DNA from: Dermatophagoides farinae
Lineage: Eukaryota; Arthropoda; Arachnida; Sarcoptiformes; Pyroglyphidae
Length of the DNA stretch: 64,000 nucleotides
NCBI RefSeq assembly: GCF_024713945.1
Contig: NC_134679.1
Location: 5,461,001-5,525,000 of the forward strand
Direction: 5' to 3'
The notes beneath the pieces are model-generated. The model did no database searches and had not been told where the DNA came from. It worked only from the letters and a program-made list of their open reading frames with translations. Within the stretch, counting starts at the first letter, position 1. Every line of letters begins with the position of its first letter. The position numbers and the translations under genes are program-made. Of the stretch, positions 1 through 35,573 are shown piece after piece.

Positions 1-1788
1 TTTTTTTCTCATCTGATGATGATGATGATGACCATCATCACCATGACCGTGATCGTATTTCAAATCAACAAAAAAAATTGAAAGATTCAAAAAAAAATAA
101 AAAAATGTGATTATATTATGCATCAACTAATAACCCATATCAAAATGGAAATCGAAAAGAATCCGGCTCTAGCCATTCAATGATAAATATAATAGAACTA
201 GGTAAATAAATTGTCATTCAAACAAAACAAAATTTCACCATGTTTTTTCACCAATCATTCAAAAATGATAAAACAAGATTTGAGAAAAAATCATTGAAAA
301 AATTACATCAACATCATAAAATATTGTCCACACTGGCGGCATTTGATAAATAAATAAAATCATCATCATTCTTTTAATCAAAATCGCTGTTCTTGAAAGC
401 TAAATGAAAAAATAATGATTATGATTATGATGATGACTAAAGAGAGAGAGAGTCTAAAGAAATGATTTTCATCACTAATTATTGAAAGGATCATAAAGAA
501 TCCATTGCACTTTTGCAAAGTTTTAAATTCACTTTGTTTATCATCATCATAATAATAATAAACATTACCCAATAATAATATAAAGTGAAAGGAAATGAAT
601 ATTTCTTTATTATAGAAGAAATCCATACCCTGATGATATGTTGTCTATGTAATATGTATTTTTTTAAAGCTTTAAAAAAATTAGCTAAATTAGATTTAAA
701 AAAAAGATAAACACAATAACCATAACAATAAAGATAAAGATCAATAATGATGATGGTGGTGGTAATAATTTGAAATGAAGTTGTGTTTTTCAATTGAAAA
801 GAGAAAAATTTTTCTCCCATTGCCCATTGGATATGGACATGAATTTGAAAATCAAATATTTTCAAGAAAAGAAAGCAGATGATATCATTATATTATCGCT
901 GTTGGTGATTATGATGTCCGAAGGGTCGTCGATCCATTTCAGGTGGACACCACGCACACAAACACATATATCTAATGATATAATCTTATGATGATGATGA
1001 TGATGGGAAAAAAACAAATTTTTTTCCAAATGTTACAAATAATGATAAAACAATTCCACCACCGCCAACTATATCTCATTCAATTCATCATCATCATCAT
1101 CATTTTTTTCTCTCTATGTGCAAGCTAAATTCTGAATATGGGGTTGACACATTTCAAATGGACACAACAGACAGTTTCCGACGAGAGAAAAATAAAATTC
1201 AATAATTTCGAAATAAAGAATGTACAAAAGAGAAAGATAACTTGAAAGCTTATACATAGATTAAAATTTGAATTAAACGATAAAAACCATCAGAGAGAGA
1301 GAGAGAGAGAAAAAAAGAAAACTATTAGAAGAAACAAAAAGATAGCCGAATCGTATGAATAAAAAGATGATGATAGGGATAAGCTTTTAACGAGAAATGT
1401 TGATTTTTAGAGATATAAAAACAAAAATCTTATTGAAAATTATTATTATCATTAAATTAAATTTTCTAAATTAGATTGCAGAACTTTGAAAGATGAGAAA
1501 ACAAAAAAACAAAAAAAAAATTTGATTATGGAAATTAGATCTAAAAAGAAGATTATATTATCAATGCAATGAAATCACAGATGATGATTATGCAATGGAT
1601 GATTTAACATCCTCAACCTATCTATCTATCTATCTATCTACCTATCAGGCAATCCTTCCTTACAACGATTTCATTTTCAAAATTGATTAATGTATTTTTG
1701 ATGATTAAATTATTCACTCAATATTGAATATATATGGAGGGGAGTGGATTGAATGATTGAATGTGAAAAAAATAACATTGATACTTAC
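1..1788. other. Intron sequence of the dachsous gene (gene continues beyond window)
   Basis: This stretch follows the donor site of the seventh dachsous exon and contains no cadherin-like reading frame on either strand. It is AT-rich, with GAT/ATC trinucleotide runs and a CTAT tetranucleotide tract near 1617-1643. Open frames here are short and low in complexity. Confidence 0.7.
1617..1643. repeat. CTAT tetranucleotide microsatellite
   Basis: Several consecutive CTAT units lie about 145 bp past the last visible dachsous donor. A similar tract occurs at about 17487-17508. Confidence 0.8.
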
Positions 1789-3859
1789 ATCTTGTATGAA
1801 AATATGTACCAACATTTCTGAACTTAATTGTCCACCATCGATAGCAACAACACGTATTTGATATTCATTTCTTGTTTCATAATCTAATGATCTACGTAAA
1901 CGTACATGTCCAGTATGTTCTTCAATTGTGAATGGAAATCGTTCACGATCATCACTATCGTGATTAGTAGCTGGATAAAGTTGATAACGTATTCGACCAA
2001 AATTATCAGCATCATAATCAATTGCATACGCAACGAATACGGTACCATTATCTATTGGTATATTTTCTGGTACACTAATTTTCAATGTTGGACTAGGAAA
2101 CATTGGAACATTATCATTCTCATCCAATATGGTTATGTTTATCTGTGTATGAGCATAACGATATGGACCAGGATATCGACCAGTATAGGCTTGAACATTC
2201 ACTAATAGATAGGAATGTTTTTCACGGTCAATCAATGATGATTTTACACTGATTGTTCCATGTCTTGGATCAATAGTAAAATAGCCATCCGGATCGCCAG
2301 AATAGATTGAATATGAAATTGGTTCTTCCTGATGAAGATCATCGTCATTAATGGATGATTCAATTTTAGCACGAACAGTACCAACAATAGCACCTTGTGC
2401 TACATTTTCAATTACTTGAAAATTAAATTGTCGTTGAAGAAATATCGGTGCTGGAATCAAATGGCCAATTGAATCGGATTGTTGTGGAACAACGGAAATT
2501 AAAACCATTGCTGGTTCCAATGATTCACGACCACCACCATCATGTGCTGTTATCATTAATTTATATTGTGTATGTGACAATGATCCAGGTAATGCAGATA
2601 ATGGTTTCAATAGGAAAATTTCACCTGTTTTTCGATCAATATCAAAATAATCTTTTTCATTACCCATTTTAATTTCATATTCAATTTGTCCAAATGATGA
2701 TCGCGGTGAATCAAGATCAGTAGCAGCCACAATTACTAATGGATTAATTTGTTTCGATGATGATGACTGTGATGATGAATATGATGGTTGAACATTTTCA
2801 CCAACACTAACTTTATATTCACGTGGATAGAATATTGGTGCATTATCATTGGCCTATGTAGGTGAAAAAAAAACCAAAACAATAAATAAATCAATCAATC
2901 AAATTTGAATGTAATCCTTTTATGTTATAAAAACAACAACATCAATTCATAATGGGAATATATAATTTATATATACATGATATATGAAAACTATGATGCT
3001 ACCGTAATGATAATAGTGAATCACATCAATCTTAATTTTTGTTTATATCTATTCTTTTCTATGAAATAAATCATATTGGATTACTACTTACATCAATTAC
3101 ATGGATTTTAATCATAGCGGTTGTTGACAATCCACCTGTATGATTGAAAAAGTAAAAAAAAATAAAAAATAAAAAAATTATGACAATTTTTGTGCTAATA
3201 ATGATGATAAAAGATAAATAAAAATTAATGGTATGTATCAATTTCTTAGGATTTGTGAATTGATAAAAATCAAAAGATGAAATCACAAAATTATGTGTAT
3301 TATTAATAGAAAAAAAGCCACATGGTTTAAAATGGTTAAAATATCAAACAAGCCAACAACAACAACATCCTCATCATCATCATCATTTGTGACTACCACC
3401 TGCTGTGGTGTTGAAATTTACAATTCATAAACATTTCATCATCATCATCATCATCATCATCGAGGATAAATTACATTATAAACCAATATATGAGATGAGA
3501 TTTGACTACATTTGAATTATATCACAAACATACTCTATTTACTGACTGACTGACTGACTAAATGAATGAATGAATGAATGACTTGATTTTTTTTTTTTTT
3601 GGCAATGGCCCCCCTCCTGAGGTCCTGCAATGTGTCTATATGAAGACAATGTTTCCACCACACTAACACTGATGATGATTGACCATGATCATCATAGAGT
3701 GAACAAACTGATGAATGATGGAATCAGAGATTTTTTTGAATCCAAAAGCCATTCATTTTGTTGTTGCTATATTTGTTGTTATCTGTTTTTTTTTATTTTT
3801 GAATATTCATAAATTATCCTATGTTGTCATATTTCATTTTTTTTTGATCGTCTGTCTGT

Positions 3860-30990: not shown

Positions 30991-31584
30991 GACCGGCGCA
31001 AAAATTGGCCCCATTGGAGAGGGGAGGAATGGACATAAAAAATGACAACCGTCACAGTCGAGATTAAGGTTCACTCGTCATTGTTATCACCATCATCATC
31101 ATGTGCATAGTCATCATTGAGCATGTGCTTTCGCGCCGTTTTTTCATGGTCGCTGTTTGAGCAGCAGACATCGATATCATCATCATCGACATATCAATCA
31201 GTACACATCTTCGATTATTATTATTGTCATTATGATCATCATCAGCATCAACATCGCAAAATGAATTGGTTGATACTTTCTTTATTATTGTGATTATCAT
31301 CGTGATATTGTTATGTTTACGTTTTCTAATCAATTATTTATTTTCTTGTATTAAATTATACTCAATAAAATCAAAGTTTATTTCAAACCGGCCAGTGATA
31401 CGAAGTTTTTTGTCTAGTTGAATCCAGTAACGCGTACGTTGATTACGTCGACATCTCAGCATCGCGTATAAGACCAGTGCCATCTGATCCTCATCCTAAT
31501 CGCCAGATAAAGCCAATAATGTTAAATTATCCATTGATATTAATCAAGCAAAAGTTTTTATAATAAAACATTATCAAAGCTACA
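30991..31584. other. Decayed sequence between BEL fragment and DNA transposon
   Basis: The first 60 bases look like a frame-shifted continuation of the integrase fragment. The rest is repeat-rich, and about 31386-31510 is unusually CpG-rich (CGCGTACGTTGATTACGTCG). No intact gene is present. Confidence 0.45.
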
Positions 31585-31604
31585 CACAGAAAAAAAAGTA
31601 ACTT

Positions 31605-31676
31605 GGAGACTGGTCTCCAAATTTGGCGTAATGCGTAAATCGTCAAATTTGGAGACCAGTCTCCAAATTTGGAGAC
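31605..31676. repeat. Left subterminal GGAGAC/GTCTCC repeat cluster
   Basis: Five copies of GGAGAC or its complement fall in 72 bp (31605, 31613, 31651, 31659, 31671). Most are paired as the palindrome GGAGAC-(C/T)(A/G)-GTCTCC, flanked by CAAATTTGG. These could be transposase-binding sites. Confidence 0.8.
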
Positions 31677-31905
31677 CCGTATTTTTGAGTAAACGACTAA
31701 ACGATTTGACTATCGATAGTGTCGTTCATCACGATTGTTGCAGCAATTTTGACCCCCTTTTATTCCCTTTACCCCCCATATTAATTTAATCCATATATAT
31801 TGAAATTTAATTGATTTTATTGAAATATTAATTTAATAAAAATTGGAAATAATAAAATACATCCATATTTCACATCCCAATTGCGCCATACAACGTTAAT
31901 TGTCC

Positions 31906-32233
31906 CGTTTGAAATAGATCCAATGTTCGCGGTCCATGTTCAAAGACAATGTCCAAATTCTATCCGTGGTTCGAGATTCAATTTCCCAATTGTTCGCCGG
32001 CAATCCTAAGTGAAGATAAATATTAGTTGTTTGTGCAATTAATCTATTCATTTGCTTACCATGACCATTTGAAATAGGTCCAATATTCGATGTCCATGTT
32101 ACAAGACAATGTCCAAATTCTATCCGTGGTTCGAGATTCAATTTCCCAATTGTTCGCCGGCGATCCTAAGTGAAGATAAATATTAGTTGTTTGTTCAATT
32201 AATCTATTCATTTGCTTACCATGACCATTTTCA
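31906..32233 (-). repeat. Tandem 160-bp exon-plus-intron duplication
   Basis: Two adjacent copies with a 160-bp period. On the minus strand each unit contains a CACTTAG acceptor and an open exon of about 105 bp (encoding for example LEPRIEFGHCLVTWTSNIG); in the right-hand copy the exon ends at a GGTAAGC donor followed by a short AT-rich intron. The left-hand (downstream) copy carries a stop in this frame and lacks that donor. I do not recognise the protein family. Confidence 0.65.
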
Positions 32234-32246
32234 AGTATGTGTTCCA

Positions 32247-33290
32247 TCCCATGAATCTTCGACTTATAATCATGTTTTCGATCGCTTCATTGATTCCAAA
32301 GATTCAATCAGCATCAAATTCAATAGGAAATAGCTCAGATCATGTTCCTAAGCCTAATCTAACCCTAGCCTAACCTGTTATCATGTGTTGAACATGGCCA
32401 AACTATTCTTGAATTGAATGCTGATGATCAATGGAACCGCCGAATTGATCTTGAACATAATCATCAATCGAATTTCAATTTGATGATTGTAAAATTTCAG
32501 GAACAAACCTAATAAAAAAAGATAGACCAATCTTTATTAGATATGAAGAATGAATATGTCGACTTACCGAATAAGTTGCTCCAACAACTCAATTCAATGC
32601 AGGCCTTTGAGAAATTTAAGTGTTAGAATCATTGATAGCGAAATTAGAAAGTTACCTGATGATGACCAGATATCCACCAATAAATTTGTAATGTTCGGCA
32701 TCATTACCATGATCGTTTTTATAAAGACGGCACCAATTATATGTCTAATGATGATCATTGATCATCAATGAAAATTTTATGCTTCAAAAGACAAGGAAAA
32801 TTGTTAGCATTTTCAATCTAAGGCAAAATGTAAATTACCTCATTGACCATGTTTTCACATATTAATCCGAATTCCATACATTGTCATACATCAAGTATAA
32901 TGGACTCTGAAAAAGAAAACTTGAAAAGGATATGATTGAATACAATTTGGTGAAAACAAAATGTCATAAATACATTTGAAAGTCATCGAAAATGGGATTT
33001 GTTCGCCAACTTGTATCATGATTACATGATGACCGAACCAAACGATCTTCATCGATTTCGTGGCCAATTTTTGATCTTAGACCACAATAACTTTGAACAA
33101 AGATAATCTTGAATCGATTAAATTCTTTGTTCCAAAATTTACTGCAAAAAACGAAGATTAAAATAGAGAAAAATGAAAAAAATACCACGACATGATCACG
33201 AACATAGCGCAAAGTCGAATGAGGACAACCGTCTTTGACGATCGTTGAGTTTTGTTCGATTTTTTCAACGGTCAAATTCAAATTTGTATG
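32247..33290 (-). pseudogene. Exon-like debris of an unidentified gene inside the transposon
   Basis: Minus-strand segments look like exons: a block with KDGCPHSTLRYVRDHV (about 33192-33281), a block beginning after TTTTTTGCAG near 33142, and smaller blocks near 32780-32910. The best splice joins create stop codons and the frames do not connect, so no intact protein can be supported. It might be a captured host gene fragment or a decayed transposase. Confidence 0.3.
32347..32375. repeat. Short telomere-like CCTAA-type array
   Basis: About 29 bp composed of CCTAA/CCTAAC-like units (CCTAAGCCTAATCTAACCC). It resembles degenerate arthropod TTAGG telomere repeats but is short and may be chance. 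Confidence 0.4.
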
Positions 33291-33644
33291 GGAATAGAAG
33301 GGGAAAAGAAGCGCGCAGAATTTGCATTGAAAATAGTTACATCTATATGACTATGCGCAGTTGCTCATTAGTTGGACTTTAGAATTTTAGGCGGCAAAAT
33401 GAATGCATTGTTTTTGCCATAGATTTAGCATGAAAAATGAATAAAAAATCAACTTATATGATAGATATTATCATATCAGCTACATAATTGGTGAAAAAAA
33501 TTATGATGTAATTTCAATGGAACGTAAAAATTGACCTTTATCACATGTTGATGATTAGTGATTTGAGCCAAAGAATTTTCCCCACTGTTTGATAAATTGG
33601 TGTCAATTTGTCAGGATTGATTGATTGATGGACTGTAATTTCAT

Positions 33645-34170
33645 TCAAAGTCGAGCTATTTATTTATTTATTCAATAAAAACCCCTGTACCTCAAAGATG
33701 GGGGAAGAAAATAAATTATAAATTTTTAAAATCATATTTAAAGAATTATAGCCAAATACATAAATTCTCTTTATGTAGATTTACACAACATTGATTTTCA
33801 ATTAAAGTTCGTTCAGCAACAAATCTTGGACCAGTATTACCACAAAAACAAGACGACTTATAACGATAACCAATTATATGCAGGTAAACATTGAATTTTC
33901 CTTGTCCCGATAAAAACTGAGGGAATACAAAATGTAGATCAATAAGAATTATTTTACGATCATATACAGATGGAAAATTTTTTTAGTAACTTTGCCATCT
34001 TCACTCATTATCCATCTTATATTATAAATCATGATATTTTTCAAAAGATATTAAGCCAAAGAAATTGGACGAAGATTGTAAGAAAAATAAGAAAAATTTG
34101 TCGCATCTTTTATATATTGGTCAGCCAATTCATTGCCAATAATACCAGAATGAGATGGTACTCAGTGAAA
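33645..34170 (-). mobile_element. 3' end of a non-LTR retrotransposon (I/R1/Jockey-like), decayed
   Basis: On the minus strand, near 34170-34100, an RNase H block reads VPSHSGIIGNELADQYIKDA, with the expected preceding Trp changed to a stop. Downstream, around 33910-33820, is LSGQGKFNVYLH followed by SSCFCGNTG, the usual C-terminal Cys region of these elements. It ends in a GAATAAATAAATAAATA tail near 33660-33675. The body carries stops and shifts. It lies wholly inside the larger DNA transposon, so it inserted into that element or was carried by it. Confidence 0.65.
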
Positions 34171-34670
34171 AAAATATATCAATTCTGAAAAATGTTTGAT
34201 TTTTATGCGACCGAAATAATGACCAACAAAATTTAATCAAAGTTGAATGATATTCTCGTCACAAAATTAAATTCAAAAACAATAACGTTACTACTATTGT
34301 CAATCTGCATATATTTGATTATTCAATTCGAGTTCAATTCAGATTTTGCTGACATGTTAACTTCAATAGTTTGATTATCTCAATGATATGATGGTGGTGG
34401 AATATTTGCATTCATGGATGTTTGATTACAGATTAAAAAACTTGGTGGCACATGTACAATATTCCGTTGTTGTTGTTAATGGTGTTGAAAATTATGATGT
34501 TGTAATTGTGGTGAAATTATCATCATATTTGGTGAATCGTTTTATAAAAGAATTGATGATGATGAATCAATCATTATAGCAGGCTGATGACGATTCATGA
34601 TGGCCATTTTTGTAGCCATTGATTGTTGAATTGGATGACCATCTTGATCATTATCGATATCATCATCGTT

Positions 34671-34848
34671 TTAGTGAATTGTTTCTCCTAAGTTATATCT
34701 TTGTAAAAATCCAATTAAATTTAAAATTTTTAACGAACAATTGAAAAACAATTTTTAGTGAATTGTTTCTTCTAAGTTATGAATTTATTTTTGTAAAAAT
34801 CCAATTAAATTTACAATTTTTAACTAACAATCGAAAAACAATCGAAAT
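34671..34848 (+). repeat. Tandem duplication of about 84 bp
   Basis: Two neighbouring copies start TTAGTGAATTGTTTCT (34671 and 34755) and share AAAAATCCAATTAAATTTA and AACAATTGAAAAACAAT-like blocks, with a 5-bp insertion in the second copy. It lies next to the right subterminal cluster of the transposon. Function unknown. Confidence 0.75.
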
Positions 34849-34888
34849 TTATCAATCATTGAAGACGAATCTTCAATATTGAAGACCA

Positions 34889-35028
34889 GTCTCCAAATTT
34901 GATGTTTTTGGTCTCCAAATTTGGCGATCACTCTTCAATAATGGAGACCAGTCTCCACTTCTCTTCATTTTTGGAGTCAGGTCTCCAAATTTGCAGATTT
35001 TTCCCTCCAAATTTGGAGACTAGTCTCC
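34889..35028. repeat. Right subterminal GGAGAC/GTCTCC repeat cluster
   Basis: Seven copies of GGAGAC or GTCTCC fall in 140 bp (34889, 34911, 34943, 34951, 34981, 35015, 35023), several in palindromic pairs and next to CAAATTTGG. They mirror the left cluster, as expected for binding sites near both transposon ends. Confidence 0.8.
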
Positions 35029-35137
35029 ACACTTTTTTTTCTGTGACATCATACGGAGTCCGCTTTTTCAAAAACTTTTTACCGATAGATGGCGCTGAAA
35101 GCATTCTCAAAAAGCACTGCTCAAAGGCATTCCCTAA

Positions 35138-35222
35138 AATAAAATTTATTTATTTATTAACCAGCCTGGTACAGACGCTTCGCGCCAGTCCAAACTGGCC
35201 CTGCGGGGCTGACTAATTGACG
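35138..35222 (-). mobile_element. Possible short retroposon 3' end with AATAAATAAAT tail
   Basis: On the minus strand a GC-rich segment able to form a hairpin (GCCAGTTTGGACTGGC) runs into AATAAATAAATAAAT. Such tails are common at non-LTR or SINE 3' ends in arthropods. No protein block is visible, so this is only a tentative call. Confidence 0.35.
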
Positions 35223-35330
35223 GTCATCTATTTGATACAAAAGCTGCATCAACGCGCGAAGCTAAAACAATTTAAAAAAAGCATTATCAAAGCTACATCA
35301 TACGGAGTGCGCTTTTTCAGAAACTTTCTG

Positions 35331-35344
35331 CCACTAGATGGCGC
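35331..35344 (+). promoter_or_regulatory. CTCF-consensus-like site
   Basis: CCACTAGATGGCGC matches the conserved animal CTCF core (CCASYAGRKGGCRS) at every position. A weaker copy (CCGATAGATGGCGC) lies at 35082-35095 in the sister repeat. A match by eye does not show binding. Confidence 0.45.
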
Positions 35345-35401
35345 TGAAAGCATTCCCTACTGTTGGATGTATACACACAGACACTAATCCGCTTACTCTT
35401 T

Positions 35402-35410: not shown

Positions 35411-35573
35411 TATGATGATGATGATGATGATATATATATAGTATGATGTTGATAAATAAAATTTCGTTTGTTCGACTATATATACTCAAATAGTCACAAA
35501 GAAATAGCCGAAATACTGAGTACAAAAATCCGTGAGTCACACTGTCACACTTTATTTTACTGTGAATTCAACG

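Follow-up and report, generated by a model that had tools for sequence, protein, structure and literature searches.

CACTA/EnSpm elements such as Spm/En, Tam1, soybean Tgm1, and Tgmt* have CAC..GTG tips and 3-bp target-site duplications, and inward of the short tips lie subterminal repeats with GC-rich and AT-rich parts. These repeats vary among CACTA elements, and their motif differs between subfamilies of a single species, soybean. In Spm/En the repeats are bound by TNPA, and TNPD is the putative transposase; the two proteins may act in trans (available passages of PMC2613891). Within the CMCT group, which includes Mirage, Chapaev, Plavaka, and ESTA, the tips are mostly CA..TG and the duplications 2–5 bp, with both 2 and 3 bp recorded in the one lineage PlavakaB and TA in ESTA (available passages of PMC12730594). 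Rapid motif turnover in tandem repeats has been described for VANDAL elements (available passages of PMC10398659). Here we describe a nonautonomous DNA transposon of the mite Dermatophagoides farinae, located in a window of 64,000 bp on contig NC_134679.1 (C3:5461001-5525000). The transposon belongs to a family in which one shared core carries three unrelated types of end block, and in which the length of the target-site duplication follows the type of block. All genome-wide counts given below come from searches of the 62,435,336-bp genome.

The transposon occupies positions 31585–35045 of the window and is 3,461 bp in length. Its left 15-bp terminal inverted repeat (CACAGAAAAAAAAGT, 31585–31599, forward strand) is matched perfectly by the inverted copy at the right tip (35031–35045, reverse strand), and ACA lies directly outside each tip (31582–31584 and 35046–35048). 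A genome search with the two flanks joined gave 13 matches, namely the flanks themselves, eight sequences that run across the junction, and three that match on the right side only. In all eight of these empty paralogues the junction reads AAGCTACATC, with ACA present once, which fixes both borders as well as the 3-bp duplication. Likeness between the empty paralogues and the flanks extends only ~20–30 bp to the left of the junction. Five of the eight have a 9-bp gap two bases to its right, and three match through the junction without a gap. The insertion site is a copy of a dispersed repeat.

The original prediction, made from the window alone, was of a DNA transposon with perfect 15-bp inverted ends and an ACA duplication, and this is borne out by the window sequence, the other copies, and the empty sites. 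It also placed an unoccupied copy of the target ~250 bp to the right. This copy is real, lies outside the element at 35280–35355 (249 bp to its right), and is one of the eight empty paralogues, among the three that match without a gap. Of the predicted borders, the left one was correct, but the right one (35354) is the far side of this paralogue and not the end of the element. By itself the tip is weak evidence, and it is the other copies and the empty sites that carry the case. The exact tip occurs 40 times in the genome, as compared with eight times for a reversed-pattern control; 17 of the 40 belong to family copies or ends found by the copy and end searches, and of the remaining 23, which were read individually, three (L003, L007, and L008) and perhaps L093 adjoin family sequence. 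The window also contains 2,154 pairs of perfect inverted 15-mers lying within 6 kb of each other, and the 40 of these that were listed are simple repeats.

Other copies with the same ends, as the prediction would lead one to expect, were found. Copy numbers given here are lower bounds, 40 of 58 candidates having been scored in the whole-element search. Two further full-length copies (C6:5130810-5134268 and C4:1895137-1898591) are 99% identical to the window copy, each differing from it by 34 substitutions. Between themselves these two copies have no substitutions and three gap events over 3,455 aligned positions, and they have unrelated flanks and different duplications (TTA and AAT, respectively). 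A shorter, 1,830-bp pair (C4:3203296 and C1:4082922) differs by one substitution and has the duplications GAT and TTT. Both near-identical pairs point to very recent transposition, which would imply that a working enzyme was present recently.

The element itself carries no gene for such an enzyme. Its interior (element bp 128–3086, window 31712–34670) is noncoding, as judged by copy comparison and Pfam, and is partly common to two other subfamilies, called b (to bp 3086) and c (to bp 2669); the window copy is of type a. The longest stop-to-stop frame in the element has 128 codons, and no Pfam family was matched by any of the six frames at E values up to 1; one short frame searched alone gave matches below the cut-off (E 0.04–0.15). 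Substitutions fall about equally on first, second, and third codon positions, and the lengths of most gaps are not divisible by three (five copy pairs). A coding interior is ruled out by the Pfam result, the even codon-position mismatches, and the gap lengths, and the element is therefore nonautonomous.

The three subfamilies have in common the tip CACAGAAAARAAAGT, with small variants, along with much of the interior, and all have CACAG..CTGTG at their extremities. What distinguishes them is the sequence directly inside the tips. In the window copy, the left subterminal block (31600–31711, element bp 16–127) contains 14-bp palindromes, the outermost being GGAGACTGGTCTCC (31605–31618, element bp 21–34, with one mismatched central pair) and the second GGAGACCAGTCTCC (31651–31664, element bp 67–80). 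At the right, the region past the likeness to type b (34671–35030) holds an array of GGAGAC..GTCTCC units at about 34860–35028, including GGAGACCAGTCTCC (34943–34956) and the outermost, perfect palindrome GGAGACTAGTCTCC (35015–35028). Types b and c have other blocks in place of the left block, and each subfamily has its own 14-bp palindrome (GGAGACYRGTCTCC in a, GGTTAGTACTAACC in b, and CGCGAGTACTCGCG in c), the three being unrelated in sequence.

The interiors of the different types diverge by only 2.5–7.0% (up to 677 positions, 19 copies), and the window interior differs from those of five b copies by 2.7–5.3%. The short type-a pair is more distant, its interior being 10.0–13.6% different from all other copies in the same comparison. 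By contrast, alignment of the end blocks, scored against 300 composition-keeping shuffles per comparison, gave z-scores of 16–18 within a type, background values (−0.2 to 0.6) for a versus b, and weak values (2.1–2.6) for c versus the other types. The layout of the blocks is nonetheless nearly constant. Across five elements, the palindrome nearest the tip begins at bp 21 from the left and bp 18 from the right in types a and b, and at bp 23 and 17, respectively, in type c. The block sequence has thus been rewritten while the layout was kept. Perfect 14-bp palindromes with at least five G+C number two to six in the 800 end bases and zero in the interior of each of five elements. With one mismatched pair allowed, there are 8–12 in the ends and 1–7 in the longer interiors, the interior ones being of other sequence. 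In a tree of the interiors, the type-a copies do not form a single clade, and the most divergent pair is among them, a pattern that tentatively suggests type a to be the older type (bootstrap 35–46% at the nodes concerned).

The length of the target-site duplication follows the same division. All six full-size elements whose two ends are both of type a show a 3-bp duplication (ACA, TTA, AAT, GAT, TTT, and TGC), whereas types b and c have a 2-bp match, of A/T bases only, in 11 of 12 and a 3-bp match, in a T-run, in one of 12. Two of the 11 2-bp matches extend to 4 bp (in TATA and in a T-run). The frequency of 3-bp duplications thus differs between type a (6/6) and types b and c (1/12; Fisher p = 0.0004). 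At this base composition, flanks would match by chance over 2 bp with a probability of 0.084 and over 3 bp with a probability of 0.024. The 12 b and c insertions include a 51-bp b micro-element, and excluding it leaves 6/6 versus 1/11 (p = 0.0006). Left out of the comparison were a hybrid element (C5:4647007; TA, 2 bp) and a 51-bp type-a micro-element (CA, 2 bp), the addition of which gives 6/7 versus 1/13 (p = 0.0012), as well as C2:3659583-3660875, whose left tip is degraded, the lone ends, and the type-a mini-element C7:3045996-3046111, which is known from the type-a end search only. A shift of the boundary such that the last G of CTGTG is counted in the duplication would bring b and c to 3 bp. 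This works for C4:3816622 and C3:3217414 and fails for C10:115449, C4:2910494, C5:5307322, and C4:5756797 (flanks compared by eye). The prediction, which was to be abandoned if duplications at other copies were not 3 bp, thus holds for full-size type a and not for subfamilies b and c.

We consider it reasonably probable that this family is a nonautonomous chassis of the CACTA/EnSpm-Mirage-Chapaev kind whose end blocks have been replaced, probably with a change of mobilizing enzyme. By analogy with Spm/En, we infer that docking would take place on the palindromes and cutting at the tips. A transposase made elsewhere would cut at the CACAG tips, the putative docking of the enzyme on the 14-bp palindromes inside the tips marking the end as recognizable. 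For type a, a 3-bp staggered cut in the target would be filled in as the duplication. Tips and interior would have been retained during evolution as the putative docking blocks at both ends were replaced, giving types a, b, and c, and the 2-bp duplications of the b and c types would probably reflect a different mobilizing enzyme. A changed palindrome with unchanged tips would mean a changed docking specificity, and a changed duplication length a different cutting geometry; the two together would amount to a change of enzyme. The specific proposal that new palindromes at both ends brought in transposases with a different stagger (3 bp versus 2 bp) is offered tentatively.

Several observations weigh against a CACTA-like chassis with exchanged enzymes. 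The tip is CACAG and not of the classical CACTA form. No transposase-bearing element with CACAG tips was found in the genome by PF02992, protein, or end-DNA searches, and the only intact PF02992 frames, of 926 amino acids, lie in elements with CCCTGG tips, two copies of which are 100% identical over 4,870 bp. Type-a blocks outpace their own interiors, so that drift explains part of the divergence; the window copy and the copy at C3:3154 differ by 2.4% in the interior, and their left blocks are 83% identical with gaps counted and 94% identical over gap-free positions. Bootstrap values in the interior tree are 35–46% at the nodes that bear on the number and direction of block changes. Lastly, the 51-bp type-a micro-element has a 2-bp and not a 3-bp match, and the type-c element at C4:1716404, which is 9.9 kb owing to later insertions, has no 2-bp match.

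An explanation in which no enzyme was switched is that recombination or gene conversion, acting through the homologous interior, gave the element an end from a donor of another type. That element ends can be exchanged is indicated by a natural hybrid (C5:4647007-4651122), which is flanked by TA on both sides and has a c block at one end and an a-type right region at the other; the latter is 96% identical to that of the window copy and lacks part of the tip and the first palindrome. A second element (C2:5950320-5953709; L025 and L026) has ~700-bp inverted ends that both consist of the type-a right region (97.6% alike), with the duplication TGC. A single-end swap accounts for hybrids but not for those copies, five of type b and six of type c, in which the blocks match at the two ends (two of the type-c copies are interrupted by other insertions, and one type-b copy was read in part). 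As a complete account end exchange appears rather doubtful, and it is better seen as a mechanism for the switch than as a full alternative to it.

Unlikely, in our estimate, is that one promiscuous transposase moves all three subfamilies, with repeat expansion and concerted evolution driving a fast turnover of the blocks and with duplication length varying by chance or with local sequence. The faster evolution of type-a blocks than of interiors, seen between the window and C3:3154 copies, is in keeping with such turnover, as are the rapidly changing tandem-repeat motifs of VANDALs (PMC10398659, in part) and the 2- or 3-bp duplications within PlavakaB (PMC12730594, in part). This explanation is opposed by the sorting of duplication length by block type (3 bp in 6/6 versus 1/12) and by an a–b block likeness that is at background even though the window and b interiors are so similar.

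An EnSpm-type transposase is present in the genome. PF02992, the Tnp2-type transposase family, occurs at four places, three of them in CCCTGG-tipped elements and the fourth a weak relic (L044), around which there is no CACAG tip within 8.2 kb. The intact element is 4,870 bp in length, occurs at C1:3950346-3955215 (L045) and on C5 (L046), and has the tips CCCTGGTAGTGCGAAAA, with TA on either side; there is also a broken third copy on C9. It is a recently mobile and probably autonomous animal EnSpm-type element, as judged by its copies. Searching the genome with the 926-amino acid protein returned its own copies and fragments. DNA searches with type a, b, and c ends tied no end to a coding element among the scored candidates, most lone ends being unfollowed; of two lone ends followed ~2 kb inward, one enters a 623-amino acid host-like frame and the other no frame of more than 130 amino acids. 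A full-length relative with a transposase and the same ends, for which the prediction proposed a search, was thus not found. That the 926-amino acid transposase moves the CACAG elements in trans might be entertained, as it is the only intact PF02992 protein found, was recently mobile, and has TA on both sides of its element, in line with the 2-bp duplications of b and c. We regard this as very improbable: comparison by eye shows no obvious resemblance of the CCCTGG tips and their subterminal repeats to CACAG or any of the three palindromes, the flanks of the broken copy do not match, and TA leaves the 3 bp of type a unaccounted for. A PIF/Harbinger-type element, suggested by the 3-bp duplications and by TTA at one copy, is scarcely credible, as that superfamily prefers TWA targets, a form seen in one of six type-a duplications, and subfamilies b and c give 2 bp.

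Duplications are 8 bp in hAT elements, 8–11 bp in MULEs, and 5 bp in Transib; among 20 insertions with 8-bp flanks compared, the longest exact duplication was 4 bp, and no 5-bp match occurred. By structure, the family is best filed, provisionally, as CACTA/EnSpm-like. The assignment to CACTA in the prediction agrees with the CAC..GTG tips, with the 3-bp duplication of all six full-size type-a copies, and with the subterminal repeats, which are palindromic units present in both ends and both orientations. It accords less well with CACAG in place of CACTA, and no transposase was found with these tips: six-frame Pfam searches gave no PF02992 in the element, three of its four places in the genome are CCCTGG-tipped elements, and the fourth has no CACAG tip within 8.2 kb. 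Unlike the CACTA/EnSpm elements with which it shares tips, type-a duplication length, and repeat arrangement, the mite family has an animal host, and neither a Tnp2 nor a TNPA gene was found in a copy; its motif is a near-perfect 14-bp palindrome, and the duplication length changes with the motif. Likeness to the CMCT group lies in the CA..TG tips and the range of duplication lengths (PMC12730594, in part), and since the mite family is known without a transposase lineage of its own, the assignment stops at the level of the group. VANDALs with their VANC target motifs are similar in being related elements with diverged noncoding binding motifs, but they are Mutator-like elements of plants, the protein that binds their motifs acts against silencing, and the available passages mention no change in duplication length (PMC10398659). 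The prediction further held that CACTA-like elements are not widely reported in mites, which is to be tempered by the mention of EnSpm fragments in the available part of the scabies-mite genome paper (PMC4641413). A limited search of the open-licence literature gave no report of the mite family or of end blocks tied to duplication length, nor did PMC5805368 give, for the terms used, a passage about classes of DNA transposon. We regard the element as a new family within a known kind of transposon, its unusual feature being the coupling of block to duplication length.

The family also includes derivatives. Micro-elements of exactly 51 bp occur in type a (C2:4834044-4834094) and type b (C5:2854983-2855033, with the first tip base changed), and consist of the right tip and the left tip with a single palindrome between them, set off by 2 bp from the former and by 5 bp from the latter. 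Joining of the two ends at their outermost palindromes would leave such a product, as might happen when a cut is repaired by annealing. Later insertions are present in c elements at C4:1716404-1726316 (L018 and L039) and C6:1266909-1270285 (L065), and include a Gypsy-like long terminal repeat retroelement frame and Tc1-like fragments. A 141-amino acid open frame (L049; C4:5760225-5760647, reverse strand), identical in two copies, lies close to the right end of c elements and matched no Pfam family. In the genome it is related to other c copies and to fragments, the majority interrupted by stops, and decayed relatives occur at C3:24746 and C7:4920738 (43–59% identity); the frame may be a captured or decayed gene. 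The interior of the window copy contains two 160-bp direct repeats (31905–32224) that are 94% alike.

Some family ends lie close to open frames. A relict type-c end in the window (35458–35564, reverse strand; tip CACAGTAAAATAAAG) is 80% identical to the c right block, so that the window holds ends of two subfamilies. It lies directly upstream of the ATG (35574) of a 125-amino acid open frame. Ends at C3:3154804 (L023) and C3:3150589 (L024) are within ~10 bases upstream of the ATG of a 355-amino acid frame, and at C4:1521313-1521432 (L070) the ATG is 16 bases behind an end fragment, the frame being open to the end of the piece. There may be a preference for insertion near gene starts, or the ends may be used as leaders. 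The two type-a left ends within C3:3148082-3155998 (at C3:3150589 and C3:3154804) have the same flank (TCTCATAT) and similar neighboring frames, and therefore look like the result of a ~4.2-kb tandem duplication that includes host-like frames.

The family bears on the annotation of the D. farinae genome. Eighteen tip-to-tip copies sum to 57,038 bp, a figure that includes C6:1266909, which contains other insertions, and C3:2374362, which was read in part. This is about as much as the 55,004 bp listed for all DNA transposons in the D. farinae assembly (Table 2 of PMC11074847, available in part), a count that may include some of these copies.

Nonautonomous transposons often outnumber the elements that move them, and how they survive the loss or silencing of their driver is the wider question. 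With one core, three end codes, and two duplication lengths in a single small genome, driver switching becomes directly testable in this family. If it is true that new palindromes brought in new transposases, the duplication length would be a fossil record of the enzyme that moved each copy.

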